Positions 22,291 through 54,053 of a DNA stretch of 64,000 nt are shown here, piece after piece. Made by a program: the position numbers and the translations under genes. The notes below the pieces were generated by a model. The model did not search any database, had not been told where the DNA came from, and was given only the letters and a program-made list of their open reading frames with translations. Location: positions 107,329,611-107,393,610 of the forward strand of contig NC_089595.1 in NCBI RefSeq assembly GCF_019320115.1, written 5' to 3'. How positions within the stretch are numbered: position 1 is the first letter of the stretch; each line of letters opens with the position of its first letter. This DNA comes from Miscanthus floridulus. Its lineage: Eukaryota; Streptophyta; Magnoliopsida; Poales; Poaceae.

Positions 22291-23200
22291 CCTCTAAATA
22301 GGAAAGCACGCTCGTCGACTTCCTCCACGCCAACAAAGACATCTTTACGTGGAAAACCTCAGACATGCCAAGCATCCCAAGGGAAGTGGCCAAGCATGCC
22401 TTAAAGATCCATCCAGGCTCCAAGTCAATGAAACAACGCCTACGTCGCTTCGACGAGGGGAAACGTAGGACCATCAATGAAGAGATCACAAAGCTTTTGG
22501 CAACCAAGTTCATCATGGAAGTATACGACCCAAAGTGGTTAGCCAATCCCATCCTTGTACAAAAGAAGAATGGGAAATGGAGGATGTGTGTTGACTACAC
22601 GGGTCTTAACAAGGCGTGTCCAAAGGATCCATTTCCTTTGCCACGCATTGACCAAATAGTCGACTCTACCTCAGGGTGTGAAACCCTCTGCTTCCTTGAT
22701 GTGTACTCCGGGTGCCATCAGATCACAATGAAAGAGTCTGAATGGCTCGCGACATCGTTCATCACCACCTTCGAATCGTTCTGCTACGTCACAATGCTAT
22801 TCGGTCTGAAGAACGCTGGGGCCACGTACCAGCATTGTATGCTCAAGTGTTTTCGGGACCTCATTGGGTGGACCATTGAGGCCTATGTTGATGACATCCT
22901 GGTCAAATTCAAATAGGCTGACCACCTCATAGCCAACCTTGAGCAGACCATTGTAAAAATCCGAGCAAACGACATCAAACTCAATTCCGAGAAGTGCGTT
23001 TTTGGGGTCCCGAAGGGCATGCTGCTTGGTTTCATCGTCTCTGAGCATGGCATCAAAGCCAACCCAGAGAAGATCTCAGCTATCACAAGGATGAGCCCGA
23101 TTCAGAATATAAAGGGGGTACAACGAGTTATAGGGTGCCTCGCCGTGCTCGGTCGCTTCATCTCACGCCTCGGCGAATGAGGTCTCCCCCTTTATCGACT
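22291..23200 (+). pseudogene. pol: Element D reverse transcriptase, broken
   Basis: The frame carries VDFLHANKDIFTWK, the entry MKQRLRRFDEGKRRTINEEI, NGKWRMCVDYTGLNKACPKD, FPLPRIDQIVDSTSGCETLC and the catalytic YVDDILVK. It breaks at TAG 22915 (after VKFK), continues through KCVFGVPKGMLLGFIVSEHG and ends in the connection region PEKISAITRMSPIQNIKGVQ. A TGA follows RLGE near 23178, where Arg is expected. The YVDD motif and the KACPKD loop fit Tat-type RTs. Confidence 0.8.
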
Positions 23201-23580
23201 TCTGAAGAAGGCCAATCACTTTGAATGGACATCCAAGGCCCAGGAAGCACTTGACATGGTTAAGCAGCTCCTGACGAAGGCCCTGATCCTGGTTCCTCCT
23301 ACCGAGGGAGAACACCTTCTGCTCTACATCATGGCCACCATGCAAGTGGTCAGCGTCGCCCTAGTAGTGGAGCGAGAAGAAGAGGGGCACACCCTCAAAG
23401 TATAGTGCCATGTGTGCTTCATCAGCGAGGTCATATCCGACTCAAAGACCCATACCCCCAAATCTAGAAGCTTATGTATGCCATCCTTATCACCAAAAGG
23501 AAGCTATGTCACTATTTCAAGTCACATCCGGTGACAGTCGTGACATCCTCCCACCTTGGCGAGGTTGTCCAGAACCAGGA
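23201..23580 (+). pseudogene. pol: Element D RNase H, first part, cut by element C
   Basis: FEWTSKAQEALDMVKQLLTK and LLLYIMATMQVVSVALVVER are the start of the Tat RNase H. A TAG follows TLKV, a frameshift follows, and the DNA stops at HLGEVVQNQD, where element C begins. The domain resumes at 52091 with SIGRTTKWTFELMGQG. Confidence 0.75.
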
Positions 23581-25004: not shown

Positions 25005-28000
25005 TGTCGCGGAACCGACCAATTTATAAGAATACAAGTATAATGGCACTCCGCAAGCGGTCGCACTGTCATACTTGAACCCATATAAACCCGGTAGTCC
25101 GTCGAGTACCACGATGGGTCTCGATAAACGATTTACAACAACCAAGATCGTACACAACATACATGCCACATATTACATAAAGTTCATAGATACTTTTCAT
25201 CATCAGAGTATGAATAAAAAGTTATTACAAACCGAGTTTGATAATTAAAGCGGAAGCAAATAAGTTCGAAGATAAGTTTCCAACGTAGCTTGATACAGTG
25301 CCAAACCAGATCACGGTCCACAAAAGCAAAGATAGGAATTACTAAGGAAGCCTGCCCAAGGCTTACTCCTCATCCACAGCGGGATAGAAGCAACTCTTGC
25401 AATAACCATGATACACAGTGCCAGCTGCAACAATGGGAAAATAAACCCTGAGTACGAGAAGGTACTCAGCTAGACTTACCCGTCATGAACCAGAAATAAA
25501 ATGACTCCAAGGATTATGCAAGGCTGTATAAGTGGACGTAACTTGGCAACATTTTGCGAAAAAGGCAACTTACCCGTTGAACAATTATAATTCCTTTATC
25601 AAGTTAATTATAACTATTCCTCTCTAGATTAGCAACTATCCTGTGCCAAACATGTGGTATATCATTTAGAAGCATACAATAGTAACCATAGCCGGTATTG
25701 AAATTCCAATTTTTATCCGAACCATCATGTTTCATAACACAGTTACTACGATGTTGGAGCTAGCCAAGTTTCTCACTATCCGGGAGAGACGGCGATTCAA
25801 ATCGATTTCAACCAGCTGGGAGTTTATTCCTAACACAAACCCAGGTCTACCAGCCACGATAGCCTTAGGTCACCTTTGATACAACTCAGGTACACATTTC
25901 GCGGGTCCGTACCGCGCCGCACAATCTGGAACACCAGATGCCAGGATGCTCAGGCCAAGCCTGCCCTTGGGCTCAGTCTGATCGTTCCCCGGAAGGAGCG
26001 CACAACAGAACGGTTCCCGGCCTGAGTTGAATTACTCGGCTTCGCGGTCGGAACGAATTATCCGGCCAGCTAAGTGAGAGGCATGCGTTCAATCTTGTCA
26101 GAAGTTCCAACAACGGTACGGTCCTTGATCGACACAGACGGGGATAGATCCACACCCAAGACCTCCATGCCTTGTTGCTTTTCTATCGCTATCCCGCCCG
26201 GTCTCCATTTACATTAACCATGGTTCTTTTCCACGATAACAATTATAACCAACCGTGCTCCGGTATCCACCTATATCTCGCAGGTGACAGGAAATCACCC
26301 GACTTCTACCGGTCTAAGCATGGCTAAGCATATATTCGATCCTGGACCTATACCGGTTAAAGGTGTAATTTCTGGACAAGGAATGTACATGCATCAAGTG
26401 GTTTCATTCAACTCTTATAACCTAATGCATCAATCATAAATACGTAATTAAACATTTGTAAATTACTGGGAGACTTATAATGCTCCGGGGCTTGCCTCGC
26501 AGAAAAGAAGTAGGACGGTGGTCAGGGCACTCCGGAAGCTCTTTAGGGTTCTGCTCCACGCCTTCAGGAGCTGCGGCTTGCAGATCCTCCTGCGGGTTCC
26601 CTTCCTCCGCTTCTTCGAATTCCAGCAACGTGATCTCTTCCTCCGATCCTAGATGCATGAGTATGGTATGAGTATCATGAATGCATATATGTTAACAAGT
26701 GCATCACGTTGTTTGAGTAGGTGCATATCTCTTCTTGATTACTACTTAACTACTTTTACAATGCATCGACTATGCCATACAGTAGCTACTTGTTTCACTC
26801 ATAACTGGAGTTCTACAAATCCAAAAATAGTGATCCTGGACTTTCTGGAAAGCTTATCAAATTCTCTACAACTTTGTTATTAACCATTTTTACAGTCTAC
26901 ATCAGTTTCAACATGTAACTCCTCACACTCTAGAATCAGTCCGGAAATGATTTAACATGCAATATAAAGTAAGAATACTCCTACTTTATGTAATCATTCA
27001 ACATTTGACAAACTAGAACCTACCAACAGTGTAAGCATACCAAATACAGTTAAGATGATATAATGGTGAAGCCCAAACTATTTATTAAATTGCCTTTATT
27101 ATTTTATTTAGATATCTAGGTTAAATAATAATTATATATCAGATGTGCTTAATAAATTCTCAAAAATTTACAGAGTCTTACTAATGCTATCAAAGGACTA
27201 CTATAAAAATTTCATGTCATTTTACTAAGTAGAACATCCTATACAAAAATGATAAGGAAGCAAGGCTTGAAATAACATAAATGGAAAATCCTATTGAAAA
27301 GTGTCAAGCAACAGATTTCTTATTTTTCTTAACATCCATATGGTACTAGTATTACCTCCAATAAATTTCATGAATTTTGGACTCATAATTAATTTATAAA
27401 AATTCATGCAAGGATTAACTATTTATAAAAGAAAAATCTATAACTATAGATCTACACATGCACTGGTCCTCAAATTTTTACCAGAGTTCACATATGCTAA
27501 GACTAGCTTACCACAAAAATTTCATAATTTTTGGAGCACAGGAACTCTAGATATAAAATAAACAAATTTGAATGCATTCAAAAGCACATTTGAAATCCCT
27601 ATTTAAATCTCCAGAAATTTCTACTGTTGAAGCCAAGAACATATTTTTTTTAAATACTACACTTCCTAAGGAACACAACCATATTTATTTCACAATTTTA
27701 GGAGCTACCAAATTAAAGATACAAAAATATCAAAACACATGAAATTAGGGTTTAAATCTGAAAAGAATGAACTAGCTTTCTAATACCAGTCACTGGCAAC
27801 CGGGGCCCACCGGTCAGCCGGGCCCGCTTGTCAGCGACTGAAAACAGGGGAGGCGGTGCCGTTCGACGCGGCACGGCCCTAGCTCGTCGCCGGTGAACTT
27901 GCCGGTGGTATCGACTACGCCTACATGGTCTACTCATCCACCCGCACCCGATGGTGGCCTTTGCACGGCTAGAAGGAGCATCGAAGCTCATAACCGGCGA

Positions 28001-29402
28001 CCATGGCGGGCGGCTACGATGGCACGGTGGGCGGAACGACGGCAAGGTGCCGGAGTTGGCCGTGAAGGCACGAAATGAGGTCCGGCCAAGTACATACGAG
28101 CTACGGCGAAACCATTTTACCCACTAACTCGGCGAATGGCGGTCAGAGTCGATGCGGCTACGACGACGGTTGCGGCGGCGAGGCACCGGCGAGGACTGCA
28201 CGTGGCACGGGAGCTTACCGTGCTTCTTCGGCTAGCAATGCAGGCACGGTGGGACTGAGGGGGCACTACATGGCTGCTATGGTGCCAGAGGGGCGACGAG
28301 GGCGAGCTGGCATCGGCAATGGCGTCGGCGGCGCTCCTGAGCTACGGTGGCGGCTGCGGGTGAGCGAAGGAGGCCACAAAAGTGAAATGCAAGCGCAGGG
28401 ACGGAGCAGGCGACTTCGGGGCGCTATGTAGGGCGTTGCGGCTCGACGTGGCTGGGCTGATCAGAGCAAAGGCGACGCGCGGCCTCCATCGGCTCCACGC
28501 GGCGGCCAGACTCTGGCGCGGTCGGCCATAGACGAACGGCGAGTTCAGTTCGTCAGTCGCCCGAGCAGTGCCTGACAGCGTGTTTTGGCGACACTTTTCC
28601 AGCTAATCCGTCGCTCCTTAGTATGAACCTCCTGAATAAATTTCGTAGACCTAAGTACCAGCTACAAATGTTGTTCAATGATCTCGTGCTAATTCGCAAC
28701 CGAAACTGAGAAAAATCATCCCCAAAGTGAGCCTGTCAGTCGGTCAATGAACCTAGACTTAGAAAAACTGCTTAAGTGTTGAAATCATGATTTTGCTGGT
28801 TTTCGTGGGACCCATTCAAGCATGTTAGAAGCTAAATCAGTCCATGACCCAAAAATAAAAGTTGTTCCTTATGTCAAACACTACAACTTTTCTTTAGTGA
28901 ACTCCTCCATGCAAGGTCCCTAACACCTAGTTCAACTTTAGTCAAACATGTCACTTTGAAATCATGATACATACACAAACCATGGCTAAATGACCAAACT
29001 AGCCTTAGCACTAAATACCAAAGTTGTTCCTAATGATATTCTAAGCATGTTTAAACAATTTGCAAGGTCATTTAAGCATTTCATGTAGTAGTCACTCATA
29101 TAGCTATCCAGGTCAACACATGTGATATTACTTAAGTGCTTGATCATGAAAGGTGACCTTCATGAACAAGGTTCCTTTTGTTAACCTAAGTGTAGCTAAG
29201 GTGTTTTAGTGACCAACATTACCCACTTGCATCCATTTGCACATGATCATATGCATATGTTCCAAGAAACACGAGATAACAAGCAATGTTTCATATGTTT
29301 CGATCAAATGTTTCAATGGTAAATGATGATTTATGAATGCTTGATGCTCATGCTCATGTTATGCAAGTCAAGTTATGCAAGGCTAACACCCGAGGTGTTA
29401 TA
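25005..29402 (-). repeat. Element B 3' LTR
   Basis: The plus strand starts TGTCGCGGAACCGACC and ends CACCCGAGGTGTTATA, where the terminal CA has become TA. It matches 35905-40307 almost perfectly. Much of it is AT-rich, with a GC-rich island at about 27790-28560. Frames in that island on both strands lack domains and are not called as genes. Confidence 0.95.
25450..25467 (-). other. LTR hairpin GAGTAC..GTACTC in element B
   Basis: GAGTAC and GTACTC flank a 6-nt loop, next to AATAAACCCT. The copy in the other LTR is at about 36355-36372. The same arms with another loop occur in C (48420-48436) and the solo LTR. Confidence 0.5.
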
Positions 29403-29414
29403 GCCCCTCCCCCT
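29403..29414 (-). promoter_or_regulatory. Element B polypurine tract
   Basis: On the minus strand AAGGGGGAGGGGC directly precedes the 3' LTR. It primes plus-strand synthesis in this retrotransposon class. Confidence 0.8.
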
Positions 29415-29419
29415 TATAA

Positions 29420-29438
29420 AAATCTCGTCCCGAGATTT
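29420..29438 (-). other. Hairpin beside element B's polypurine tract
   Basis: AAATCTCG-TCC-CGAGATTT has 8-bp perfect arms with a 3-nt loop. It lies between the gag-pol stop and the polypurine tract. Element C has the same arms at the same place (42951-42969). Confidence 0.75.
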
Positions 29439-29445
29439 GCAAGAC

Positions 29446-30747
29446 CTACCATTCTTGGAAAAAGGCGGGATAAACTTCTCGCAGATAATCTTCTCTTTCC
29501 CACATAGCATCTTGTTCACTATGATTGTTCCACACCACCTTATAGAACTTAATAATCTTACTCCTTGTTACTCTCTCCATCTCTTCTAATACTTGAATTG
29601 GCTTTTCTTCATAGGTCAAATCCGATTGAAGTTGCACATTGGTGGGTGCAATAGCTTCTTCCGGTACTCGAAGACATTTCTTTAGCTGAGAAACATGGAA
29701 CACAGCAAAGATTGCACTCATCTCTGGTGGTAGTTGTAGCTTATACGCAACATTTCCTTTTCGTTCCAAAATTTTGTATGGCCCTACATATCTTGGTGAA
29801 AGCTTCTTTTTCATCCCAAATCTCTTCACACCTTTCATGGGTGATACTCTCAAGTATACATAGTCACCCACTTCAAAAGTTAGTGGTCTTCTTCTTCTAT
29901 CGGCATAACTCTTCTGTCTTGATTGAGCTGCCTTCATGTGTTGTTGGATGATATGTACTTGTTCTTCGGCTTCATTGACAAAATCAATACCAAAATATCT
30001 CCTTTCACCGGGCTCAATCCAATTCAATGGAGTTCTGCACTTTCTGCCATACAAGGCTTCAAATGGAGCCATTTTGATACTCGCTTGATAACTGTTGTTA
30101 TAGGAGAATTCAGCTAAAGGTAACCATTTCTCCCATGAACCTTTTGAAGATATAACACAAGCCCTAAGTAAATCTTCTAGGATTTGGTTCACCCGCTCTG
30201 TCTGTCCTGAAGTTTGCGGATGATAAGCTGAACTTCTGATTAGCTTGGTTACCAAAGCTTGGTGTAAGTGCTCCCAAAAACGAGCTATGAACTGTGGTCC
30301 TCTATCTGAGATTATGGTCCTGGGTACTCCATGCAATTTCACGATCTGGGAAACATATAACTCAGAGTATTTCCCCGCGTGATATGTTGTGTGAACTGGT
30401 ACAAAATGTGCTGACTTGGTGAGACTATCAATAATGACCCAAATTGAATCGTGACCTTGGGGCGTTGTTGGAAGGCCTGTGATAAAGTCCATACTGATCT
30501 CCTCCCATTTCCATCCTGGAATAGGCAGTGGCTGAAGTAATCCAGTGGTTTTCATATGGACGGCTTTCACTCTACTGCAGTTATCACACCTAGCCACATA
30601 GGCTGCGATCTCTTTCTTCATCTTAGTCCACCAAAAATGGTTTCTTAGATCTTGATACATTTTACTACTACCCGGATGGATAGACAATTTGGACAAGTGA
30701 GCTTCTTCTAAAATTTGATTCCTTAGCTCACGGTCTTTCGGTACCAC
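29446..30747 (-). pseudogene. pol: Element B integrase with chromodomain (end of gag-pol)
   Basis: This is the last part of one gag-pol frame, cut from the RT part only by a TAG at 30751-30753. It has the zinc-binding HHCC module (HLSKLSIHPG to CDNCSRVKAVH), the DDE core (MDFITGLP, ISDRGPQF, SGQTERVNQILEDLL), the GPY/F region YVGPYKILERKGNVAYKLQL and a C-terminal chromodomain (PIQVLEEMERVTRSKIIKFY, then VVWNNH and AMWERE). The chromodomain keeps two aromatic positions, but where canonical HP1-type domains have the first cage aromatic it reads PIQVLEE. That is the plant group II pattern. The product joins cDNA into chromatin. About 433 residues, intact after the stop. Confidence 0.9.
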
Positions 30748-30750
30748 TAG

Positions 30751-32808
30751 CTAGTCCTCAAACCATAATACACCTCTTTCGTCCAATCTAAAATGTTTGG
30801 TCTCTTGCTCTTGCATTTTTCTCTTAATGTGACTTATTCCCACATCAGTCTGCTGTAGCTCTATGATTTTGCCTTCAAGCGAACAACTGATTGTGATATT
30901 GTGCAGTACAGCAGGATGTAGCAAGTTGAATCCATCTTCCAACAAGGCTTCCACAGTGTTGCAATGGGACTTCCGACTAAGTGCATCGGCTACTACATTT
31001 GCTTTACCTGGATGGTAATGCACTACCAAATTATAGTCCTTAATCAATTCCAACCATCTGCGTTGTCTCATGTTCAGTTCTGGCTGGGTAAAGATATACT
31101 TGAGGCTTTTGTGGTCAGTATAGATATGACATACATTGCCCAATAAGTAATGTCTCCATATCTTTAATGCATGGACAACGGCTGCAAGTTCCAAATCATG
31201 TGTAGGGTAGTTGACTTCATGTTTTCTCAGTTGCCGAGAGGCATATGCAATTACTCTCCCTTCTTGCATAAGTACACATCCCAAGCCTATTCCTGATGCA
31301 TCACAAAATACATCAAAAGGCTTTTCAATGTCTGGTTGGGCTAGCACTGGTGCTGTAGTCAACAAAGTTCTAAGGGTGTGAAAAGCTATTTCACATTCTG
31401 GTGTCCACTTGTATTTCTCATCTTTCTGAAGTAGTCTGGTCATAGGCTTAGCTATCTTTGAGAAATCTGGAATAAATCGGCGATAGTATCCTGCTAACCC
31501 TAGAAAACTCCGAACTTCATGCACCGAAGTTGGGGCTTTCCAATCCATGACCTCTTGTACTTTTGATGGGTCTACTAAGATTCCATCTCTCGATAAAATG
31601 TGACCTAAAAATGGTACTTTGCTCATCCAAAATTCACATTTGCTAAACTTGGCATATAGCTTATGCTCCCTCAGTCTGGATAGGACAATCCTCAGATGCT
31701 CTTCATGATCTGACTCAATTTCTGAATAAATCAATATGTCATCGATAAACACGACCACGAACTTATCAAGTTCGGGCATGAATACCGAGTTCATCAGGTA
31801 CATGAAATTGGCTAGAGCATTTGTTAGTCCGAAAGACATAACCAAATACTCGTATAAGCCGTACCTAGTAGAGAAAGCAGTCTTAGGTATATCCTTCGGT
31901 CTAATCTTTATCTGATGGTAACCTGACCTCAAGTCAATTTTGGAGAATACCTTTGCCTTCGCTAGCTGATCGAACAAGATGTCGATGCGGGGTAACGGAC
32001 ATTTGTTCTTGATGGTTACAGCATTGAGTGGTCTGTAATCTACACACATCCTCAGTGACTTATCCTTCTTTTTCACAAACAGTGCTGGACATCCCCACGG
32101 AGATGAGCTAGGTTGGATAAGACCTTTGTCCAATAGATCTTGCAATTGAACCTTAAGTTCTGCTAACTCATTGGGTGGCATTCTATATGGCCTTCTGGAT
32201 ATGGGTGCGGTACCTGGCACTAATTCAATCTTAAATTCCACGTCCCTATCTGGTGGTAGACCTGGTAATTCCTCTGGAAATACATCCGGAAACTCACAAA
32301 CCACTGGAATATCACACATGGTGGTGGCTTGGATAGCATAGGCTAAATGTTGGGGTTCGAATTCGCGGGAGAGTGGAACTAGAAAAGCATTCCCTCCCGT
32401 GGGTTCTCTCAACATAATGGTATGGGTGCTAGTGTCAATAAGAACACCATGATCCTTCATCCAATTCATGCCTAAGATTACACTTATCGACAATCCCGGC
32501 AATATTATCAAATCTGTTGTGTACTCCCTCCCTTGTATCAAGATGAGTACATTTTTGACTATCTTTTTGGTAGTAACAGTTCCCCCTGCTGAACTTATGT
32601 TAAAACCCCCTTTACTTACTTCTATTATTTCTTGATCATGTCTAGATGCAAATGCTTGACTCATAAATGAATGAGAAGCTCCCGAATCAAATAAAACAAC
32701 AGCGGGATGCTTGTTGACAAGAAACATACCAGCCGTGACAACTTCTCCGGCGGGCACTTCCTCTACAGCGGTATAATGCACTTGTCCCTGACGTGCCTTG
32801 GCATTCAC
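30751..32808 (-). CDS. pol: Element B protease, reverse transcriptase and RNase H
   Basis: The open frame of 685 codons contains the protease active site ([12 protein letters not shown]), the hinge [22 protein letters not shown] with [40 protein letters not shown] and the catalytic [10 protein letters not shown], and RNase H with [40 protein letters not shown] and [10 protein letters not shown]. It is colinear with gag upstream and integrase downstream in one frame, so translation as a single polyprotein is expected of the family. A TAG ends it at 30751 after WFED, where family members continue with a Gln or similar residue. All catalytic residues that I can see are intact. Confidence 0.9.
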
Positions 32809-33858
32809 CTGCCTCTGATTGTTCTGATTTGGGTTGCCATTCCTCTTGGGGTGGGGGCACTCCTTGGACCAATGACCCAGTTGGTTGCAGTTGAAACATG
32901 GTTGATTACTTTTGAATCCTGTGGAGCTGTCCTGATTGCCATTTCCTTTTGGTAAGGCAATAGTGAACGCCTTACGAAATGGTTTCTGTGGCCTATTATT
33001 CTGAGCTTTTGGTGGTGGAGGCCTGAACTTGGGTGCAGGTGGACGGAATTGTGGCCTAGCTGTGATAGGCGCTTTCGACTAGAAAGATCCGGATGCACCG
33101 GTCTCATATGCCCTCTTACGACCTTTAGCAACTGCATGCATGTTGTTGTGGTTTTCTTGGGTCAAGGCATCACTAATAAACTCATTGTACGTGGCACATC
33201 GAGAATTTGCCATAGTCTTCATCAGTTTGGTACCCAAACCTCGCTTGAAACTCTCAATCTTTTTCTCTTCAGTATCCACAAAACTTGGAGCATATCTTGA
33301 CAAGTTGTTGAATGCGTGCATATATTCTGTGAGTGACTTGGTTCCCTGAGTGAGCCTCATAAATTCTGCTGCTTTCATGCGCATTAGGCCCGGGGGAATA
33401 TGGTGTCCCCTAAAAGCCAGCTTGAATTGATCCTAGGTCACTCTCGCATTAGTAGGCAGAGACGACAGAAAGTGCGTCCACCAGATTCCTGCTGGTCCTT
33501 GCAATTGATGAGAAGCATATTCTGCTTTCAGGTGCTCTGTGACCCTTAGCAGACGAAATTTCTACTCGATGGTATTCAGCCACTCATCGGCCTACAGTGG
33601 TTCCTCAGCCACCTTGAAGATCGGAGGCTTCGTGTCCAGAAACTCCTTGAATGAACTGTGCTGATTTGGCTCGGCCCCTGGTTGCTGTGGGTGGCCACGA
33701 GCAGTGTTTTGCGCGATAAGGCGCAAAGCTTCTTCCATTGTCCTCTGGCTCCCTAGGAACTAGGCAAAGAATTCCTGAGCAGACGGCGGCGGTGGGGGTG
33801 GCAAGTCATCGTGGTTGCCATCCTGGCTGCTACTAGCTCCTGCACGGGTGCGCGTCAT
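32809..33858 (-). pseudogene. gag: Element B gag with zinc knuckle, five TAG stops
   Basis: The frame begins at ATG 33858 (MTRTRAGASSSQ) and continues in register into the protease. It has a Pro-rich N-terminus, the gag core FKEFLDTKPPIFKVAEEPL, then HQLQGPAGIWWTHFLSSLPT and FMRLTQGTKSLTEYMHAFNN, and a CX2CX4HX4C knuckle ([14 protein letters not shown]) near 32915-32880. TAG codons fall at 33760, 33592, 33562, 33433 and 33079 (lowest plus-strand base). Four replace an expected Gln (CAG) and 33433 an expected Trp. There is no frameshift. The product would form the particle and bind RNA. Confidence 0.85.
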
Positions 33859-34211
33859 CTGCGAAGTTGCAACAATAAGCGATTATTGGTTGAGGTCAAG
33901 AGATTGCAGAGGAATTTTGTACTCATGCCAAACTGAAATTACTGGAGAAAATTCTCAAAATCACAATAAAAACAGAGGCATAATAATTCTTTCTCGCAAC
34001 ATGACATCACCAATTTGACCACTTATCGTGCTCATAACGCATGCAAATTTAAAGCGTGATTACCGACAAAGAACTAGAATTGCATTGACATTCAACCAAA
34101 CGGGCGATTTAACATTACATGATAGTCTGGTTACTAATGCCAACTTCAAACTACATGTCCATTACATAAATAGAGGTGATACATTAGTCCTTCCACTAAA
34201 TGCGAAGCGAT
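33859..34211 (-). other. Spacer between extra ORF and gag in element B
   Basis: About 350 bp of AT-rich DNA with no coding signal. It may act as the leader for gag translation or hold a splice acceptor for a gag message. Nothing specific was seen. Confidence 0.4.
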
Positions 34212-35138
34212 CTAATCCTCATTATGATCACTATCGAGGTCAGACGCAGAATCATTTCCTTCCTCAGGTTCTACTTCTTCTTCAGGTGCCACTTCTTCTT
34301 CACCTTCCTCGTATCCTTCTAGATCCATTTCTGCGGCTCCAGGTGGGACATAAGGGTGGAGCTGATTGTGCAGTAGATGAACCTCTTCATGCAGATTATC
34401 GTTGTATTCTTCTGCATTGGCCAGCTGCTGTCCCAGCTCAAACTGTCGAGCTCTCAAGACATCTTCCCTGGACCAGGCTGCATTCCGCTGGTGAGTTAAC
34501 CAAGTCATCTCTTCAGTGAGCCTCTCAATCTCGGCGTCGTGCTCCCTCTGAAGCTGACGTCGATCCTCGTGGGCATGACCAAGTGCACCAGACACACGTC
34601 TGAGGCTACCCTCAACTCCATCTAACACTCTCATCATTGCGAACATGGCGCTCATGGCAGGGTTATCGCTGTTCTGCCCTTCTGCTGCACCAATCTCCAA
34701 AGATCTTCCTCTTGCCTGCTGCCATGAGTCAGTGGATGGGTTACCTCTTGGAAAGACTCCAACCAAAGCGGCTGCTAGCTCCTGAGGAAAACGATCCATG
34801 ATATTCCTCAAGATCCCAAAGGCTGCCCTGCCAGCTGCTTCTTCAGCAGTCCTACCAGTTGACTCATAACACCAGCCTGTCCACTTAGAATCGTCACCTC
34901 AGGGACGGACAACGGCCTCCACAGTAACTAAGAGACCTTCTCCCAACCGCTCATTCGCCCAGAAGTAGCGGGGCTCCATTCCATCATGATAACCTACATA
35001 GCTGAGCACTCTCCACAAGAGTGTAGGCATCCCAAACTCTCCAAGGAACATGTGACGTTGACGGGTACGTGGAGCAAGCTGACGGCTAGGAGCTCTGCCT
35101 CTGGTGGACTTGCGAGCAGTCTGCTTGGTGCGTGCCAT
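34212..35138 (-). pseudogene. Element B extra ORF with histone H3-tail-like N-terminus
   Basis: From ATG 35138 the protein begins M-ARTKQTARKST, identical to the first 11 residues of mature histone H3. It continues RGRAPSRQLAPR, where H3 has GGKAPRKQLATK. It then leaves H3 entirely. Residues about 31-125 form a globular region with helix-strand-strand-strand-helix character (TLLWRVLSYVGY; EPRYFWANERL; LLVTVEAVVRP; WTGWCYESTGRTAEEAAGRA). A coiled coil follows (about 155-240: QREHDAEIERLTEEMTWL, NDNLHEEVHLLHNQL), then a very acidic tail (EGEEEVAPEEEVEPEEGN). A TGA is codon 80 (34899-34901), probably from CGA. The rest stays in frame to 34212, about 308 residues in all. It lies between the primer site and gag, where most chromoviruses have only leader. 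Inference: a chromatin-directed accessory protein. It is not a histone, as no histone fold is present. Confidence 0.85.
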
Positions 35139-35883
35139 CTGCACCATTAACATGTACCCCTTGGTGAGACAATGCCATAATGGATAAGAGTTACATAACC
35201 GAGTAAGAATTTTATAAGGGGAGGAACAATGTAATTATGTGAATGGTAATTTAACATGATGCATGCTCATGCCGTACGTCCTTACAAACTTAGGAAAAAT
35301 TTGTTTCTAACGGTAGACACGGTGGCATACATACGTTCTCTCATAAAAGCGTAACTAGTCGAGCTACATGTTTCGTTGTTAGTGTACCTGCATAAAAATT
35401 TCATTTCAGCCCTAAACCCATAATGAAATATGCAGAATGTAATTGTAAATACTTTCATATATGTATACCCATACATATACTTCCGTATCAATCTACCCGA
35501 CAAGAATTTAAACCCACAATTAAATACGTACCATATACACATGCAAGCATGCATACACAGCCGTACCAAAGCTAACTCTTCCCGACCGCACGCTCACATC
35601 TTGCGGTCATACACTCATCTTACCTTGGCGTAGAGGCATTTGATCCATACATTACCACTCAAGTGAATGGCATCCATACTATAGCACGCCGTATGGACGA
35701 CGAAGTAAAAACCCCCATGTTAGTACTTAAATAGCCACCTAATAGTCCTTAATTTGGGCATAAGGAAAGTGATCATTGGTACACTTTAGATTTCAAATAC
35801 CTATTATATAACTAATAGTTGCTAGAGAAGGGTTTTTGGAAAACAAAACTTTTGTTTTAAATACACTTGTAACAATTAACGTT
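35139..35883 (-). other. Element B 5' untranslated leader
   Basis: Between the primer site and the extra ORF there is about 740 bp without a supported gene. The last part contains two in-frame ATGs (35153 and 35147) just before the ATG at 35138. The bases before 35138 on the minus strand are GGTGCAG, which could also be a splice acceptor. Confidence 0.45.
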
Positions 35884-35902
35884 GAATCTTGCTCTGATGC
35901 CA
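35884..35902 (-). other. Element B primer-binding site
   Basis: On the minus strand TGGCATCAGAGCAAGATTC begins two bases after the 5' LTR end. It differs by one base from the TGGTATCAGAGC core complementary to initiator methionine tRNA. Confidence 0.85.
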
Positions 35903-35904
35903 GC

Positions 35905-38900
35905 TGTCGCAGAACCGACCAATTTATAAGAATACAAGTATAATGGCACTCCGCAAGCGGTCGCACTGTCATACTTGAACCCATATAAACCCGGTAGTCC
36001 GTCGAGTACCACGATGGGTCTCGATAAACGATTTACAACAACCAAGATCGTACAGGATTCAACATACATGCCACATATTACATAAAGTTCACAGATACTT
36101 TTCATCATCAGAGTACGAATAAAAAGTTATTACAAACCGAGTTTGATAATTAAAGCGGAAGCAAATAAGTTCGAAGATAAGTTTCCAACGTAGCTTGATA
36201 CAGTGCCAAACCAGATCACGGTCCACAAAAGCAAAGATAGGAATTACTAAGGAAGCCTGCCCAAGGCTTACTCCTCATCCACAGCGGGATAGAAGCAACT
36301 CTTGCAATAACCATGATACACAGTGCCAGCTGCAACAATGGGAAAATAAACCCTGAGTACGAGAAGGTACTCAGCTAGACTTACCCGTCATGAACCAGAA
36401 ATAAAATGACTCCAAGGATTATGCAAGGCTGTATAAGTGGACGTAACTTGGCAACATTTTGCGAAAAAGGCAACTTACCCGTTGAACAATTATAATTCCT
36501 TTATCAAGTTAATTATAACTATTCCTCTCTAGATTAGCAACTATCCTGTGCCAAACATGTGGTATATCATTTAGAAGCATACAATAGTAACCATAGCCGG
36601 TATTGAAATTCCAATTTTTATCCGAACCATCATGTTTCATAACACAGTTACTACGATGTTGGAGCTAGCCAAGTTTCTCACTATCCGGGAGAGACGGCGA
36701 TTCAAATCGATTTCAACCAGCTGGGAGTTTATTCCTAACACAAACCCAGGTCTACCAGCCACGATAGCCTTAGGTCACCTTTGATACAACTCAGGTACAC
36801 ATTTCGCGGGTCCGTACCGCGCCGCACAATCTGGAACACCAGATGCCAGGATGCTCAGGCCAAGCCTGCCCTTGGGCTCAGTCTGATCGTTCCCCGGAAG
36901 GAGCGCACAACAGAACGGTTCCCGGCCTGAGTTGAATTACTCGGCTTCGCGGTCGGAACGAATTATCCGGCCAGCTAAGTGAGAGGCATGCGTTCAATCT
37001 TGTCAGAAGTTCCAACAACGGTACGGTCCTTGATCGACACAGACGGGGATAGATCCACACCCAAGACCTCCATGCCTTGTTGCTTTTCTATCGCTATCCC
37101 GCCCGGTCTCCATTTACATTAACCATGGTTCTTTTCCACGATAACAATTATAACCAACCGTGCTCCGGTATCCACCTATATCTCGCAGGTGACAGGAAAT
37201 CACCCGACTTCTACCGGTCTAAGCATGGCTAAGCATATATTCGATCCTGGACCTATACCGGTTAAAGGTGTAATTTCTGGACAAGGAATGTACATGCATC
37301 AAGTGGTTTCATTCAACTCTTATAACCTAATGCATCAATCATAAATACGTAATTAAACATTTGTAAATTACTGGGAGACTTATAATGCTCCGGGGCTTGC
37401 CTCGCAGAAAAGAAGTAGGACGGTGGTCAGGGCACTCCGGAAGCTCTTCAGGGTTCTGCTCCACGCCTTCAGGAGCTGCGGCTTGCAGATCCTCCTGCGG
37501 GTTCCCTTCCTCCGCTTCTTCGAATTCCAGCAACGTGATCTCTTCCTCCGATCCTAGATGCATGAGTATGGTATGAGTATCATGAATGCATATATGTTAA
37601 CAAGTGCATCACGTTGTTTGAGTAGGTGCATATCTCTTCTTGATTACTACTTAACTACTTTTACAATGCATCGACTATGCCATACAGTAGCTACTTGTTT
37701 CACTCATAACTGGAGTTCTACAAATCCAAAAATAGTGATCCTGGACTTTCTGGAAAGCTTATCAAATTCTCTACAACTTTGTTATTAACCATTTTTACAG
37801 TCTACATCAGTTTCAACATGTAACTCCTCACACTCTAGAATCAGTCCGGAAATGATTTAACATGCAATATAAAGTAAGAATACTCCTACTTTATGTAATC
37901 ATTCAACATTTGACAAACTAGAACCTACCAACAGTGTAAGCATACCAAATACAGTTAAGATGATATAATGGTGAAGCCCAAACTATTTATTAAATTGCCT
38001 TTATTATTTTATTTAGATATCTAGGTTAAATAATAATTATATATCAGATGTGCTTAATAAATTCTCAAAAATTTACAGAGTCTTACTAATGCTATCAAAG
38101 GACTACTATAAAAATTTCATGTCATTTTACTAAGTAGAACATCCTATACAAAAATGATAAGGAAGCAAGGCTTGAAATAACATAAATGGAAAATCCTATT
38201 GAAAAGTGTCAAGCAACAGATTTCTTATTTTTCTTAACATCCATATGGTACTAGTATTACCTCCAATAAATTTCATGAATTTTGGACTCATAATTAATTT
38301 ATAAAAATTCATGCAAGGATTAACTATTTATAAAAGAAAAATCTATAACTATAGATCTACACATGCACTGGTCCTCAAATTTTTACCAGAGTTCACATAT
38401 GCTAAGACTAGCTTACCACAAAAATTTCATAATTTTTGGAGCACAGGAACTCTAGATATAAAATAAACAAATTTGAATGCATTCAAAAGCACATTTGAAA
38501 TCCCTATTTAAATCTCCAGAAATTTCTACTGTTGAAGCCAAGAACATATTTTTTTTAAATACTACACTTCCTAAGGAACACAACCATATTTATTTCACAA
38601 TTTTAGGAGCTACCAAATTAAAGATACAAAAATATCAAAACACATGAAATTAGGGTTTAAATCTGAAAAGAATGAACTAGCTTTCTAATACCAGTCACTG
38701 GCAACCGGGGCCCACCGGTCAGCCGGGCCCGCTTGTCAGCGACTGAAAACAGGGGAGGCGGTGCCGTTCGACGCGGCACGGCCCTAGCTCGTCGCCGGTG
38801 AACTTGCCGGTGGTATCGACTACGCCTACATGGTCTACTCATCCACCCGCACCCGATGGTGGCCTTTGCACGGCTAGAAGGAGCACCGAAGCTCATAACC

Positions 38901-40307
38901 GGCGACCATGGCGGGCGGCTACGATGGCACGGTGGGCGGAACGACGGCAAGGTGCCGGAGTTGGCCGTGAAGGCACGAAATGAGGTCCGGCCAAGTACAT
39001 ACGAGCTACGGCGAAACCATTTTACCCACTAACTCGGCGAATGGCGGTCAGAGTCAATGCGGCTACGACGACGGTTGCGGCGGCGAGGCACCGGCGAGGA
39101 CTGCACGTGGCACGGGAGCTTACCGTGCTTCTTCGGCTAGCAATGCAGGCACGGTGGGACTGAGGGGGCACTACATGGCTGCTATGGTGCCAGAGGGGCG
39201 ACGAGGGCGAGCTGGCATCGGCAATGGCGTCGGCGGCGCTCCTGAGCTACGGTGGCGGCTGCGGGTGAGCGAAGGAGGCCACAAAAGTGAAATGCAAGCG
39301 CAGGGACGGAGCAGGCGACTTCGGGGCGCTATGTAGGGCGTTGCGGCTCGACGTGGCTGGGCTGATCAGAGCAAAGGCGACGCGCGGCCTCCATCGGCTC
39401 CACGCGGCGGCCAGACTCTGGCGCGGTCGGCCATAGACGAACGGCGAGTTCAGTTCGTCAGTCGCCCGAGCAGTGCCTGACAGCGTGTTTTGGCGACACT
39501 TTTCCAGCTAATCCGTCGCTCCTTAGTATGAACCTCCTGAATAAATTTCGTAGACCTAAGTACCAGCTACAAATGTTGTTCAATGATCTCGTGCTAATTC
39601 GCAACCGAAACTGAGAAAAATCATCCCCAAAGTGAGCCTGTCAGTCGGTCAATGAACCTAGACTTAGAAAAACTGCTTAAGTGTTGAAATCATGATTTTG
39701 CTGGTTTTCGTGGGACCCATTCAAGCATGTTAGAAGCTAAATCAATCCATGACCCAAAAATAAAAGTTGTTCCTTATGTCAAACACTACAACTTTGCTTT
39801 AGTGAACTCCTCCATGCAAGGTCCCTAACACCTAGTTCAACTTTAGTCAAACATGTCACTTTGAAATCATGATACATACACAAACCATGGCTAAATGACC
39901 AAACTAGCCTTAGCACTAAATACCAAAGTTGTTCCTAATGATATTCTAAGCATGTTTAAACAATTTGCAAGGTCATTTAAGCATTTTATGTAGTAGTCAC
40001 TCATATAGCTATCCAGGTCAACACATGTGATATTACTTAAGTGCTTGATCATGAAAGGTGACCTTCATGAACAAGGTTCCTTTTGTTAACCTAAGTGTAG
40101 CTAAGGTGTTTTAGTGACCAACATTACCCACTTGCATCCATTTGCACATGATCATATGCATATGTTCCAAGAAACACGAGATAACAAGCAATGTTTCATA
40201 TGTTTCGATCAAATGTTTCAATGGTAAATGATGATTTATGAATGCTTGATGCTCATGCTCATGTTATGCAAGTCAAGTTATGCAAGGCTAACACCCGAGG
40301 TGTTACA
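35905..40307 (-). repeat. Element B 5' LTR
   Basis: TGTCGCAGAACCGACC to CACCCGAGGTGTTACA, 4403 bp. It differs from 25005-29402 by about ten substitutions, mostly transitions, and an extra GGATT near 36055. It is followed by TCAAT, the right copy of the target duplication. Confidence 0.95.
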
Positions 40308-43015: not shown

Positions 43016-46000
43016 CTAACCATCCGACCCAGAGAGGAGATGGGGGTAATGCTTTGATAAGTAACTCTCTTGCTCCCAAGTGGCTTCGTCCTCTGCATGG
43101 TTTTGCCATTGTACCTTATAAAACTTTATCACCCTGTTCCTAGTCACTCTCTCCTTCTCATCCAAGATTTTTATAGGATGCTCCACATAGGACAGATCAG
43201 GTTGTAGCAGAAGTCCTTCTATTTCCATAGATTCTTTAGGGACTCGTAGGCATTTCTTCAGTTGTGAGACGTGAAATACATTGTGAACTGCCGAGAGAAT
43301 TTCAGGGAGTTGGAGACGATAAGCAATAGGGCCACACTGTTGCAACACCTTGTATGGACCCACATACCGAGGGGCTAACTTGCCATGGACACCAAACCGA
43401 TGTACTCCTCTCATAGGAGATACTTTGAGATACACATAATCCCCATCTATAAATTCCAAAGGCCTTCTTCGCTTGTCTGTGTAAGCCTTCTATCGACTAT
43501 AAGCTGACTTCAAGTGTTCATGAATTATATTTACTTTCTCTCGAGCCTCCTTTATGAAATCAGGCCTGAAGTACCCATGGTCTCCTACTTCAACCCAGTT
43601 TAGTGGTGTCCTACACTTTTGTCCATATAAAGCTTCAAATGGTGCCATGCGGATACTCTCTTGATAGCTGTTATTATATGAAAATTCTGCCAGCTTCAAA
43701 CAATGATCCCACTTCTCAGGAAAAGAGATGGTACAAGCCCGCAGCATATCCTCGAGCACCTGGTTCACCCTCTCAGTTTGACCATCCATCTATGGGTGGT
43801 ATGCCGAGCTCCTAAGAAGACGAGTACCCAAACACTCCTGGAGTTTCTCCCAGAAACGAGAGACAAAAACTGACCCTCTATCAGAGATGATGGTGAGAGG
43901 AACTCCATGTAGGGTCACAATCCGATCGAAGTATAACTCCGCATACTTCTTGGCATTGTATCTAGTGTCCACCAGAAGGAAGTGGGCAGACTTGGTGAGA
44001 CGGTCCACGATGACCCAAATAGAATCAAAACCAGAGGAGGTGCGGGGTAAACCCACAATGAAATCTAGGGAAATATCCTCCCATTTCCAAATAGGAATGG
44101 GCAAGGGCTGCAGATATCCAGGAGTACGCATATGATCTGCCTTGACTCTGCCACAAGTGTCACATTCCGCAACAAACTGGGTGATATCTTGCTTCATGTA
44201 TGACCACCAGTACAGCTTGCGCAGATCATGATACATCTTGTTGCTACCAGGGTGGATAGATAGCTTGGAATGATGGGCTTCGTGCAAAATCTTTCTTTTC
44301 AGCTCTTCAGTGGATGGAACTACCAGTCTATCCTTGTATCTTACGACTCCTTGCTTATCAATGCTAAAATGAGGTCCACGCCCTTCTGCTAGCAACTTCT
44401 TGATGTGAGGAATCTCTTCGTGATCTCCTTTCTGTTCCTGAATAATTTGCTCCAGCAATTCTGAGGTCAAAGCAATCTGAGCTAGCACCTCAGTGTGGTG
44501 GAGTGACAAGGGTAATTCCTCAACCTGATGCGACTTATGACTCAAAGCATCAGCCACCACATTGGCTTTTCCTGGATGATAGTAGACTTCCAAATCATAA
44601 TCCTTGATCAACTCTAACCATCTCCTTTGTCTCATGTTCAACTCAGACTGAGTGAAAATATACTTAAGGCTCTTGTGGTCAGTGAAGATATGCACTTTGT
44701 TGCCCAACAAATAATGCCTCCAAATCTTCAGAGAGTGAACTACCGTAGCTAGCTCTAAATCATGGGTAGGGTAGTTCACCTCGTGCTTCTTCAGTTGGCG
44801 CGAAGCATAAGCTATCACACGCCCTTCTTGCATAAGCACACACCCCAATCCCGTCTTCGAGGCATCACAGTAAACATCAAAGGGCCTCTCAATATTAGGT
44901 TGAGCCAACACAGGAGCAGTGGTCAGAAAAGTCTTCAGGGACTGAAAAGCTTCTTCACAAGCTGGACTCCAAACAAACTTAGCTTCTTTCTGGAGCAGCT
45001 TAGTCATGGGCTGGGCTATCTTGGAGAAATCAGGGATGAAACGTTGATAGTATCTAGCTAGCCCAAGGAACTGACGGATCTGGTGCATAGACCTTGGAGA
45101 CTTCCAATCTAATACATCTTGCACCTTGCTGGGATCCACAGAAACGCCCTCAGGTGTCAACACATGTCCCAAAAACTACACTCGATCAAGCCAAAACTCG
45201 CACTTGCTGAATTTAGCATACAGCTGGTGCTCCCTTAGCTGAGTCAGTATTATCCGGAGGTGATGGGCATGCTCTTCCTCATTCTTGGAATAGATTAAGA
45301 TGTCATCAATGAAAACTACCACAAACTTATCTAGCTCTGGCATAAAAACTGAGTTCATCAGGTACATGAAGAAGGCCGGGGCATTGGTGAGGCCAAAAGA
45401 CATCACTAGGTATTCATATAACCCATACCTAGTAGAGAAAGCTGTCCTTGGTATATCCTGTGGCCTGATCTTGATCTGATGGTAGCCTGACCAGAGGTCT
45501 ATCTTTGAGAACACCATGGCACCAGCTAACTGATCAAACAAAGTATCAATGCGGGGCAAGGGATACTTGTTCTTAACTGTTACCGCATTGAGGGGGCGGT
45601 AATCCACACACATCCGCAGTGTACCATCCTTATTCTTCATGAAAATTGCTGGGCAACCCCATGGTGAAGAACTTAGGCGGATGAAACCCTTGTCCATCAA
45701 CTCCTCCAGTTGCTTCTTCATTTCTGCTAGTTCTCTTGGGGCCATGCGGTACGGACGTCTGGAGATAGGAGCAGTACCAGGCTCAAGTTTAATGGAGAAT
45801 TCTACCTCATGGTCTGGTGGCAATCCAGGAAGATCCTCAGGGAAAACATCTGGGAACTCACATACTACTGGAATGGAGGTAAGATCAGGAACGGCTTTAG
45901 CATGGGCAGCAACAGGTAAGACCGGTTCTGAGGGTATGATGAGAGACATCCTATCCTCAGAAGATGGAAGCCGTAACTCTACACTTCTTCTCTTCATATC

Positions 46001-46495
46001 CAATACTACCCCATACACCTGCAACCAGTTCATCCCAAGAATAACATCAATACCTTGCCCAGGCATTATCATGAACTATAGACGGTAAGTGTGGGTGGCT
46101 AATACCAAACTTACTGTATCCGTGCGGGTGTTGATGAACATCTGAGAACCCACAGTATAGATCTTATAGGCATACGGTATAGCCACAAGTGATAAGTTGT
46201 GCCGTTCTACAAACCCCATGCTCATAAAGGAATGCGATGCACCAGAATCAAATAACACCAAAGCTGGATGGGATTCGATGGTAAACATACCAGCCATAAC
46301 TGTCTCCTGATGCACAACCTGCTGAGCATCCGTGAAGTGCACCTGACCAGATCTACTGGGCACCTTCCTCTTGATGAAAGTCCTCTTAACCAGCCTGGAA
46401 TTTGCAGATGGCTGAGACGGCTGAGCTGTCTGCTGCTGAGGACACTCCCTGGCATAGTGGCCCTCCTTGCCACACTTGAAACAAGCACCAGGCAT
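43016..46495 (-). pseudogene. pol: Element C pol: protease, RT, RNase H, integrase, chromodomain
   Basis: One frame runs from the zinc knuckle (CFKCGKEGHYAREC, start of the 46495 segment) through the protease ([14 protein letters not shown]), RT ([20 protein letters not shown], catalytic [10 protein letters not shown] near 45300), RNase H ([32 protein letters not shown]), integrase HHCC (HHSKLSIHPG to CDTCGRVKADH), DDE core (LDFIVGLP, ISDRGSVF, GQTERVNQVLEDML), YVGPYKVL and a chromodomain (PIKILDEKERVTRNRVIKFY, VQWQNH, ATWEQE). TAG stops lie at 46076, 45176, 43790 and 43490, each at a Gln position. There is no frameshift. The domain order and group II-type chromodomain fit Tekay/Del elements. 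Confidence 0.9.
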
Positions 46496-46497
46496 GT

Positions 46498-47605
46498 TCC
46501 TGAATCCCTAACGAGGTGGGACCTGCTGTCCCTGAGTTTGCTGGGGCTACACCTGCTGCTGAGGTGCCTTGTACTGGGTAGCAGAAGTTTGTGAGGTCTG
46601 CTGGGGTGACTGGAATGGAGGCCCGCCGGATGGTTGATAGGACCCCTGCCTCATAATTTGCACCTTCTGAGTATGAGGGTGGCTGGAGGATCCAGCTGCC
46701 ACCCTCCTCCGCTTCCAATCCGCCTGAGATGCCCACTGAAAACCCTCAAGAGCAATGGCGGCGTTCATCAGAGCCCTAAAGGTCTAATAGTTCCCCAGGT
46801 ATAGTTTCTCCTGAAGAACAGGAGTGAGACCACGAAAGAAGCGATCCTTCTTCTTGTCATCCGTGTCCACCTGACTACCAGCATACTGAGCCAAGTGGTT
46901 GAACTGATTCACATACTCCATTACCGTCCTGCCCCCCTGACGCAACTCCATGAACTCGGTCACCTTCTGGTGGATAACGCTAGCAGGTATGAAGAACTCA
47001 CGGAAGGCGATGGAGAACTCCTGCCACGTTGCCGGATGATCCAGTAGCTCTGCGGCCAGGAAAGTCTCCCACCAGGCACCTACGGACCCCAAAAGCTACT
47101 GGGACACAAAGTGCACCTTCTGCTCGTTGGCCACTCCGAGCAGCCGAAACTTCTGCTCCAGCGTGCGAAGCCAGTGCTCCGCCTCCAACAGATCGTCCGA
47201 CGGCTTGAACGTGGGCGAATGGGTCTTGAGGAAGTCCTAATAAGAGGATTGTCCCTCAGGATGGTGAGCACCACCCCCATTCCCACCGTTGCCTCTGGGG
47301 CCTCCACGGGCGAGACCCGCGACGGCCTGTGCCATAATCTCCAAGGCACGAGCAGTCTCCTGTCGAGCCACGGCTGACTCCCGACGAGCAGCCAACAACT
47401 CCACCATGACCTCCGTGGCGGACAGCGGCGGAGGCGGTGGTGGCGGCGGGAAAGGATGAGGAACCAAAGGTGGAACCTCCCGAGCTCCCTCGTTGTCACG
47501 CTCAAAGGCCCGAGAACTGTCACCATGGCCCTCGTTGGCCGCTCCTGAACTGGTGCTCCCACGTCCGGACCTCAGATTCATCTGTAAGAGAGACGAACCA
47601 TCCAT
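46498..47605 (-). pseudogene. gag: Element C gag, five TAG stops
   Basis: The frame opens at ATG 47605 (MDGSSLLQMNLRSGRGSTSS). It has a proline run, an Ala/Arg-rich helix (ELLAARRESAVARQETARAL), the gag core (FKPSDDLLEAEHWLRTLEQK, AWWETFLAAELLDHPATWQE, FMELRQGGRTVMEYVNQFNH), and a Gln-rich linker before the zinc knuckle. TAG codons at 47237, 47096, 46784, 46547 and 46508 (lowest base) replace expected Gln codons. It is in register with pol, with no frameshift. The product would be the particle protein. Confidence 0.85.
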
Positions 47606-52900: not shown

Positions 52901-54053
52901 CAAATCCTTTGTTCTTGTGGAGGGCAAACTCTACAAGCGAAGCCACACTAGGATCCTATAGTGCTGCGTCCCCTTCGAATAGGGGAAGCGTTTGTTGAGC
53001 GATATCCACGGTGGGGTCTGTGGTCACCATGCCATGCCTAGAACCCTGGTCAGAAACACATTTCGATAGGGCTTCTACTGGCCTACCGCGGTAGCCGATG
53101 CCGAGCAAATCGTACGCACCTGCAAAGGGTGCCAGTACTATGCTCGGTAGACTCACCTACTAGCCCAAGCACTCCAGATGATCCCCATCACCTGGCCATT
53201 CACTGTTTGGGGACTCGATCTGGTTGGACCACTCAAAAAGGCGCCCGGGGGCTACGCCCACTTGCTTGTCACCATAGACAAGTTTACAAAGTGGATAGAA
53301 GCTCGACCGATTTCCATGATCAAATTCGAGCAGGCCGTACTGTTCTTCCTCGACATCATCTATCGCTTTGGAGTCCCGAACTCCATCATCACGGACAATG
53401 GCATGCAGTTCACTGGCAAGAAATTCCTCTGATTTTGTGATGAACAGCACATTCGCGTCGACTAGGCCTCCATAGCGCACCCCTAGACGAACGGGCATGT
53501 AGAACACACAAACGACATGATCCTATAGGGCCTTAAGCCTAGGATCTTTAGCCGGTTGAACTAATTCAGCGCACACTGGGTCACCGAACTTCCTTCAGTA
53601 CTCTGGAGCCTGAGGACAACCCCCAGTTGAGCCACCAGCTACACACCGTTCTTCATGGTCTATGGTTCTAAGGTCGTCCTCCCAACTGACCTTGACTACG
53701 GAGCACCAAGGATAAGGGCATACGATGAATAGGGAGCCGAGGCATCCCACGAGGATGCCATGGACCAGCTAGACGAAGCTCGCGATGTTGCCCTCCTTTG
53801 CTCGGCCAAATACCAGTAGGCATTGCGATGATACCACAACCGACGAGTGTGAGGTCGGGCCTTCAACATCGGGGACCTGGTCCTCTGCCTCGTTTAGAGC
53901 AACAGGGACCACCACAAGCTCTCCCCGCCATGGGAGGGACCATACGTCATTGTGGAGGTACTCCGGCCAGGCGCCTACAAGCTGAAAACCATCAACGACA
54001 AGGTCTTCACCAATGCCTAGAACATCGAGCAGCTATGTCGCTTTTACCCCTAA
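52901..54053 (+). pseudogene. pol: Element D integrase, broken
   Basis: It keeps one reading frame without shifts but has about fifteen stops. Recognisable parts are the HHCC module (DIHGGVCGHHAMPRTLV to CKGCQYYAR), the catalytic core (GLDLVGPLKKAPGGYAHLLV, IITDNGMQFTGKKF, NGHVEHTND), TPFFMVYGSKVVLPTDLDYG, and the C-terminus LSPPWEGPYVIVEVLRPGAY to NIEQLCRFYP-TAA at 54051. Stops are TAG at expected Gln or Trp codons and TGA at expected Arg codons, plus one TAA. Confidence 0.8.

Follow-up and report, generated by a model that had tools for sequence, protein, structure and literature searches.

An H3-like tail at the start of ORF0 in a Tekay-like chromovirus of Miscanthus floridulus, a candidate histone mimic

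The stretch analyzed here, which we call the window, comprises 64,000 nucleotides of Miscanthus floridulus contig NC_089595.1 (positions 107,329,611 to 107,393,610). On its minus strand, it carries a long terminal repeat (LTR) retrotransposon, a Tekay-like chromovirus, with an extra open reading frame (ORF) ahead of gag-pol, which we refer to as ORF0. The predicted ORF0 protein begins with a copy of the N-terminal tail of histone H3. Sequence establishes the tail itself, its spread among relatives, its conservation at the protein level and the position of the ORF. We tentatively propose, at somewhat less than an even chance, that ORF0 is a histone mimic centered on K9, which opposes or exploits silencing by H3K9 methylation and small interfering RNAs (siRNAs). 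By histone mimic, we mean a non-histone protein with an H3-like modifiable motif, and ORF0 possesses such a motif in the form of a T-A-R-K-S core.

The H3 tail and its origin

The frame that starts at ATG 35138 begins MARTKQTARKSTRGRAPSRQLAPR. Translation and recount confirmed what a preliminary description of this DNA had reported, namely that the residues after the Met (ARTKQTARKST) are identical to residues 1-11 of H3 and that 17/23 residues match overall. When the window ORF0 was compared by phmmer to the sequences of solved structures, the top match was a 25-residue H3 peptide (E = 4.1e-05, query residues 1-24), with full-length H3 chains mostly near E 4e-04. A pattern search of the window in all six frames returned this known site only and no second H3-like tail. 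As had been described, the tail belongs to an ORF of an LTR retrotransposon; ORF0 lies inside the element, between its LTRs. In contrast, the 308-residue product previously announced does not hold for this copy, in which codon 80 is a stop and the product from ATG 35138 is at most 79 residues long; gag and pol are interrupted as well. In relatives, the reading frame is open at this point. We also considered whether ORF0 might be a true histone, which we rejected because no histone fold was seen, the structural models showing a fold like that of double-stranded RNA-binding domains (dsRBDs) and a coiled coil. In a Pfam scan of six ORF0 relatives at E 1, no histone family was matched.

Several relatives are informative about where the tail comes from. 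The intact relative P0077 is closer to H3 than the window copy, with 19/23 identical residues and a best E of 1.4e-06. The earlier suggestion of derivation from H3 is upheld. In P0067, 19 of the first 28 residues of H3 are identical; the chain that it matches best has a Cys near residue 27 (E = 4.1e-06), and it matches ordinary H3 chains with E from 1.2e-05 to about 6e-05 across residues 1-29. P0151 contains an LATKAPRCKS stretch. Because of these matches of P0067 and P0151, the H3 resemblance extends to about residue 28 in their lineage. These two proteins are the nearest to H3 past residue 20; P0067 retains K14, and both have an Ala at the position of S10. Capture from a histone H3 gene is the best origin for the tail that the sequences offer. 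A chance or convergent resemblance, in which the stretch only looks like H3, might be invoked because the match is short and its E-values against solved structures are moderate. Nevertheless, a run of 11 identities that is in register with the Met, together with the phmmer E-values and the H3 matches of P0077 and P0067, led us to reject it as extremely improbable.

Spread and conservation of the tail

Three protein searches yielded 54, 11 and 413 hits, the third at E up to 1 and the others at 1e-3, the first and third scoring only about 8000 candidates. The resulting set of relatives contains 163 proteins, to which the third search contributes the best 120 of its 413 hits. A tail was called at 9 or more identities to H3 out of 23, a cut-off of our choosing. 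By this measure, the tail is present in 87/163 relatives and absent in 76/163; nearly all of the latter have their first residue past the tail, either at an internal start or where a contig ends. Among proteins of the long form that have at least 20 residues ahead of an FLxEFGMP-like motif, 69/70 have the tail. The exception, P0119, has a decayed tail with 7/23 identities. The first search alone, for which the query was the whole frame, found the tail in 5/5 such proteins. According to the preliminary description, its proposal would be refuted if other family members lacked the tail; the proposal passes this check, and the notion of a single odd copy can be discarded. There is also a short form of ORF0 (16 proteins: P0034-P0039, P0041-P0048, P0050 and P0051), in which no dsRBD-like domain separates the tail from the coiled coil and the acidic C-terminus. 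P0049, annotated as Miscanthus floridulus and one of the 76 without a called tail, has the C-terminal part of an integrase fused to the end of ORF0 and is probably a gene-model chimera or a rearranged element. Pattern and protein scans of viral contigs, and a protein scan of genome contigs, gave no confirmed relative at the DNA level.

We then counted residues in the 88 tails, window ORF0 included. K9 is the most constant lysine (88/88), K4 being less so (62/88, with an Arg in 25). Also strongly kept are L20 (87), G13 and P16 (86 each), A1 (84) and T6, A7 and S10 (82 each), followed by R2 (76), T3 and R8 (75 each). Judged from the proteins, much of the variation at the Arg positions (to His, Cys, Gln or Trp) looks like a product of methylated-CpG decay. 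Positions 14, 18 and 23, which are acetylation sites in H3, are mostly Arg (75), His (72) and Arg (71), respectively. Lineages were defined by average linkage at four cut-offs, which gave three to five lineages, since single-linkage clustering put nearly all long proteins in one group; the values therefore come as ranges that shift with the cut-off. Between lineage majorities, identity is 82-89% for residues 1-21, 25-35% for the linker (residues 22-29), 87-89% for residues 30-44 and 43-51% for residues 45-74. The tail thus equals the most constant portion of the domain that follows and is far above the intervening linker. At the protein level, and in members partly chosen by their tail, this pattern argues for constraint on the tail.

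The sequence around the start codon bears on how the tail would be presented. ATG 35138 is the 33rd ATG after the 5' LTR, the 32 others preceding it in the leader. An acceptor-like TGCAG abuts this ATG, and a Gln precedes the Met in 18/19 of the relatives with upstream residues, which fits a splice acceptor that has been kept. The captured gene may have been of the H3.3 type, which has an intron in its 5' untranslated region. The leader contains seven donor-like sites, and splicing could strip 7 to 24 of its ATGs. A free N-terminus, taken as given in the preliminary description, has to be downgraded to an assumption in view of the 32 upstream ATGs, two of which (35153 and 35147) share the open frame of the tail. 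Readers of the K4 type require a free Ala1, which is not strictly the case for K9-type enzymes and chromodomains. That K9 is the most constant lysine fits with the latter group of factors.

The ORF0 protein and its element

Behind the tail of about 23-28 residues, the linker leads to a dsRBD-like domain, after which ORF0 continues with a coiled coil and ends in an acidic C-terminus. The models of P0015 and P0065 show an alpha-beta-beta-beta-alpha fold that is dsRBD-like by fold comparison, and for one of them plant DRB7.2 and the second dsRBD of DCL4 rank first. The domain is thus predicted from models to have a dsRBD-like fold. No dsRBD family is among the matches listed (25 of 68 families) for the profile of 48 members of A5, no dsRBD chain was named when profiles A2 and A5 were compared to structure chains at E 10, and P0065 had no family match at all in the profile scan. 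The KKxxK motif at the start of helix 2 provides the RNA-contact lysines of dsRBDs. At the corresponding columns, which were matched by eye, Lys or Arg occurs in 0/48, 7/48 and 0/47 proteins, with other basic residues nearby; the domain seems to be devoid of the usual RNA-contact lysines. It differs in this respect from DRB7.2 and from DCL4 with DRB4 (PDB 8igd and 9k9p), to which there is no sequence-level match either. The P0015 model has a helix at residues 159-296, and the acidic end has 14-22 Asp or Glu among the last 45 residues in six relatives.

The element as a whole (Table 1) has the domain order of Ty3 elements, with protease, reverse transcriptase, RNase H, integrase and, last, a chromodomain. 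In the distal part of pol, Integrase_H2C2 and SH3_Tf2-1 score above the Pfam cut-off, which rve and Chromo (E 0.0082) do not reach; the chromodomain matches PDB 2m2l (E 5.3e-05). In our own reading of that alignment, it is a type II chromodomain with an incomplete aromatic cage, one of the three cage positions being aromatic. We call the element Tekay-like on the basis of domain order and chromodomain type. The primer-binding-site-like stretch TGGCATCAGAGC resembles the initiator tRNA-Met site, a polypurine tract stands immediately ahead of the 3' LTR, and 4/5 bases agree in the 5-bp target repeat flanking the element.

Table 1. Parts of the retrotransposon in the window
Feature	Positions	Strand	Evidence
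Whole LTR retrotransposon (chromovirus), 15.3 kb	25005..40307	-	LTR pair by blastn, ends inspected, pol domains
5' LTR, 4.4 kb, begins TG, finishes CA	35905..40307	-	blastn, ends read
3' LTR, 4.4 kb, begins TA rather than TG	25005..29402	-	blastn, ends read
Primer-binding-site-like stretch	35891..35902	-	just inside 5' LTR, sequence read
Leader, 5' LTR to ORF0	35139..35904	-	32 ATGs, TGCAG at its end
ORF0 frame, 308 codons, stop at codon 80 (34901-34899)	34212..35138	-	translation, homologues
Met and 23-residue H3-tail segment	35067..35138	-	translation, identity count, phmmer
Region aligning with dsRBD-like domain of intact relatives	34755..35048	-	approximate limits; models are of relatives only
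Coiled coil and acidic C-terminus	34212..34640	-	approximate limits; P0015 model helix and P0038 coil aligned here
Gag region, CCHC-like motif seen by eye, 5 or more in-frame stops	32810..33890	-	three-frame reading, approximate limits
Pol: protease, reverse transcriptase, RNase H	30751..32808	-	Pfam RVP_2, RVT_1, RT_RNaseH
Pol past in-frame stop: integrase and chromodomain	29446..30747	-	Pfam, PDB match

The insertion looks young because its LTRs are 99.68% identical (9 mismatches in 4401 blastn columns), despite at least seven in-frame stops in total, at least five in the gag region and one each in pol and ORF0. This copy was probably already defective at insertion and mobilized in trans by intact relatives. 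A second chromovirus-like element is found in the window at 43016-47605 on the minus strand, with a pol 64% identical and gag-like frames seen by eye. It has no ORF0 match at E 1e-3. Distant pol-like matches at 22338-23300 and 53061-53987 (27% and 25% identity) belong to other retroelements.

An extra ORF at this place in an element is not new. ORF0 was noted in 2012 ahead of gag-pol in Retrosat2, RIRE3, RIRE8 and their grass homologues, and only in grasses, without an established function, its predicted roles being mainly hydrolase- or transferase-like (PMC3485330). The likeness to our element lies in the position of the ORF and in long LTRs (about 3 kb or more) in Ty3 elements; the published ORF0 evolves faster than ORF1 (PMC3485330). 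According to Neumann et al., Retrosat-2 belongs to Tekay, and the authors ask whether some extra ORFs function at all (PMC6317226). The earlier remark that such an ORF was not known from any described LTR element of plants needs to be split: an ORF0 ahead of gag-pol has been published, while we found no report of the tail. The word "histone" has 0 occurrences in the main text of PMC3485330, and a literature search, whose coverage left out most subscription papers, found the tail peptide together with a retrotransposon nowhere; further searches gave no such report among the entries listed.

Possible roles of the tail

In our preferred reading, ORF0 is an accessory protein of a Tekay-like chromovirus lineage, part of which comes from a captured host H3 gene. 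We infer that H3K9 methyltransferases of the host (SUVH4/KYP type) would act on the T-A-R-K-S core, and that the methylated core would be bound by H3K9me readers of the CMT3/ZMET2, ADCP1, LHP1 or SHH1 type. Oligomers formed through the coiled coil may display many copies of the tail, by which silencing factors would be titrated or recruited. The dsRBD-like domain may contact DRB/DCL proteins, since its RNA-contact lysines seem absent and the better model is likest to plant dsRBDs in protein complexes. The net outcome would be that the element or its relatives are silenced less. A bolder version, in which ORF0 is a two-armed silencing antagonist whose host-derived tail, kept by selection across many lineages, jams or hijacks H3K9 methylation while the DRB-like domain ties up Dicer-like partners, appears doubtful to us. 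If it were true, one small protein would strike both halves of the siRNA-H3K9me loop. Weighing against a mimic maintained by selection, the evidence for constraint is at the protein level only, and the members compared were partly selected by their tail.

Other roles for the tail can be envisaged, each of which we consider unlikely. It might serve integration, with ORF0 accompanying the particle or integrase while the tail binds readers of heterochromatin, or else the type II chromodomain of the element itself, and thereby steers or regulates insertion. The integrase chromodomain of the element speaks for this, as does its poor cage, and the partner of type II chromodomains, which are without a full aromatic cage, is described as unidentified in PMC6317226 and PMC3350952. 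Yet methyl-lysine reading would be unexpected of a chromodomain that has no cage, and the neighboring chromovirus gave no ORF0 match. We put slightly lower the idea of a peptide captured for nuclear import or nucleic-acid binding, for which K9 methylation is irrelevant; the basic tail would then do no more than carry ORF0 to the nucleus or coat nucleic acid. H3 tails are known import signals, the ORF0 tail is basic, and positions 14, 18 and 23 have changed mostly to Arg or His; however, a generic basic peptide has no need for an invariant K9, nor for A1, T6, A7, S10, G13, P16 and L20 being kept in at least 82 of the 88 tails when the next eight residues diverge. Lower again stands a passenger H3 fragment without any tail function, whose contribution to ORF0 is the start codon and maybe a splice acceptor. 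The TGCAG and the Gln before the Met make DNA-level constraint at the junction plausible, and capture of an H3 gene by a transposon is known in fungi (PMC6710886). Against this stands the far greater likeness of residues 1-21 than of the linker between lineages, and the retention of the tail by proteins that have no middle domain.

The proposed histone mimic has partial parallels elsewhere. Viral histone mimics, which are short motifs, include reportedly influenza NS1; there and in SARS-CoV-2 ORF8, a viral protein with an H3-like stretch can engage chromatin factors. Here, in contrast, the stretch has about 23-28 residues, is in register with the start codon, is homologous to H3 and is carried by a plant-type retrotransposon. 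VANC of Arabidopsis VANDAL transposons is likewise a transposon accessory protein that opposes silencing, as reported for VANC and proposed for ORF0; unlike ORF0, it is a sequence-specific anti-silencing protein, and the excerpted text of PMC10398659 and PMC5735166 makes no mention of an H3 tail. A hAT transposon of Pseudocercospora fijiensis has captured and amplified H3 coding sequence, but it is a DNA transposon with hundreds of copies inactivated by repeat-induced point mutation (PMC6710886), whereas ORF0 has the H3 tail only, fused to another protein and conserved.

To our knowledge, and among the literature entries listed, no transposon protein has been described before that retains a histone tail at its N-terminus in many lineages. 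With its inherited H3 tail and a domain whose predicted shape resembles that of RNA-silencing proteins, ORF0 is a candidate decoy directed at the transposon-silencing machinery. The tail could also be tested as a partner of type II chromodomains, for which PMC6317226 gives none. Should ORF0 prove to be a histone mimic, nature would have supplied a probe for the H3K9 writers and readers of plants. Plants silence retrotransposons via siRNAs and H3K9 methylation, and plant genomes are nonetheless rich in chromoviruses; a histone mimic, if it is one, would give ORF0 a function and provide a candidate answer to how chromoviruses persist.
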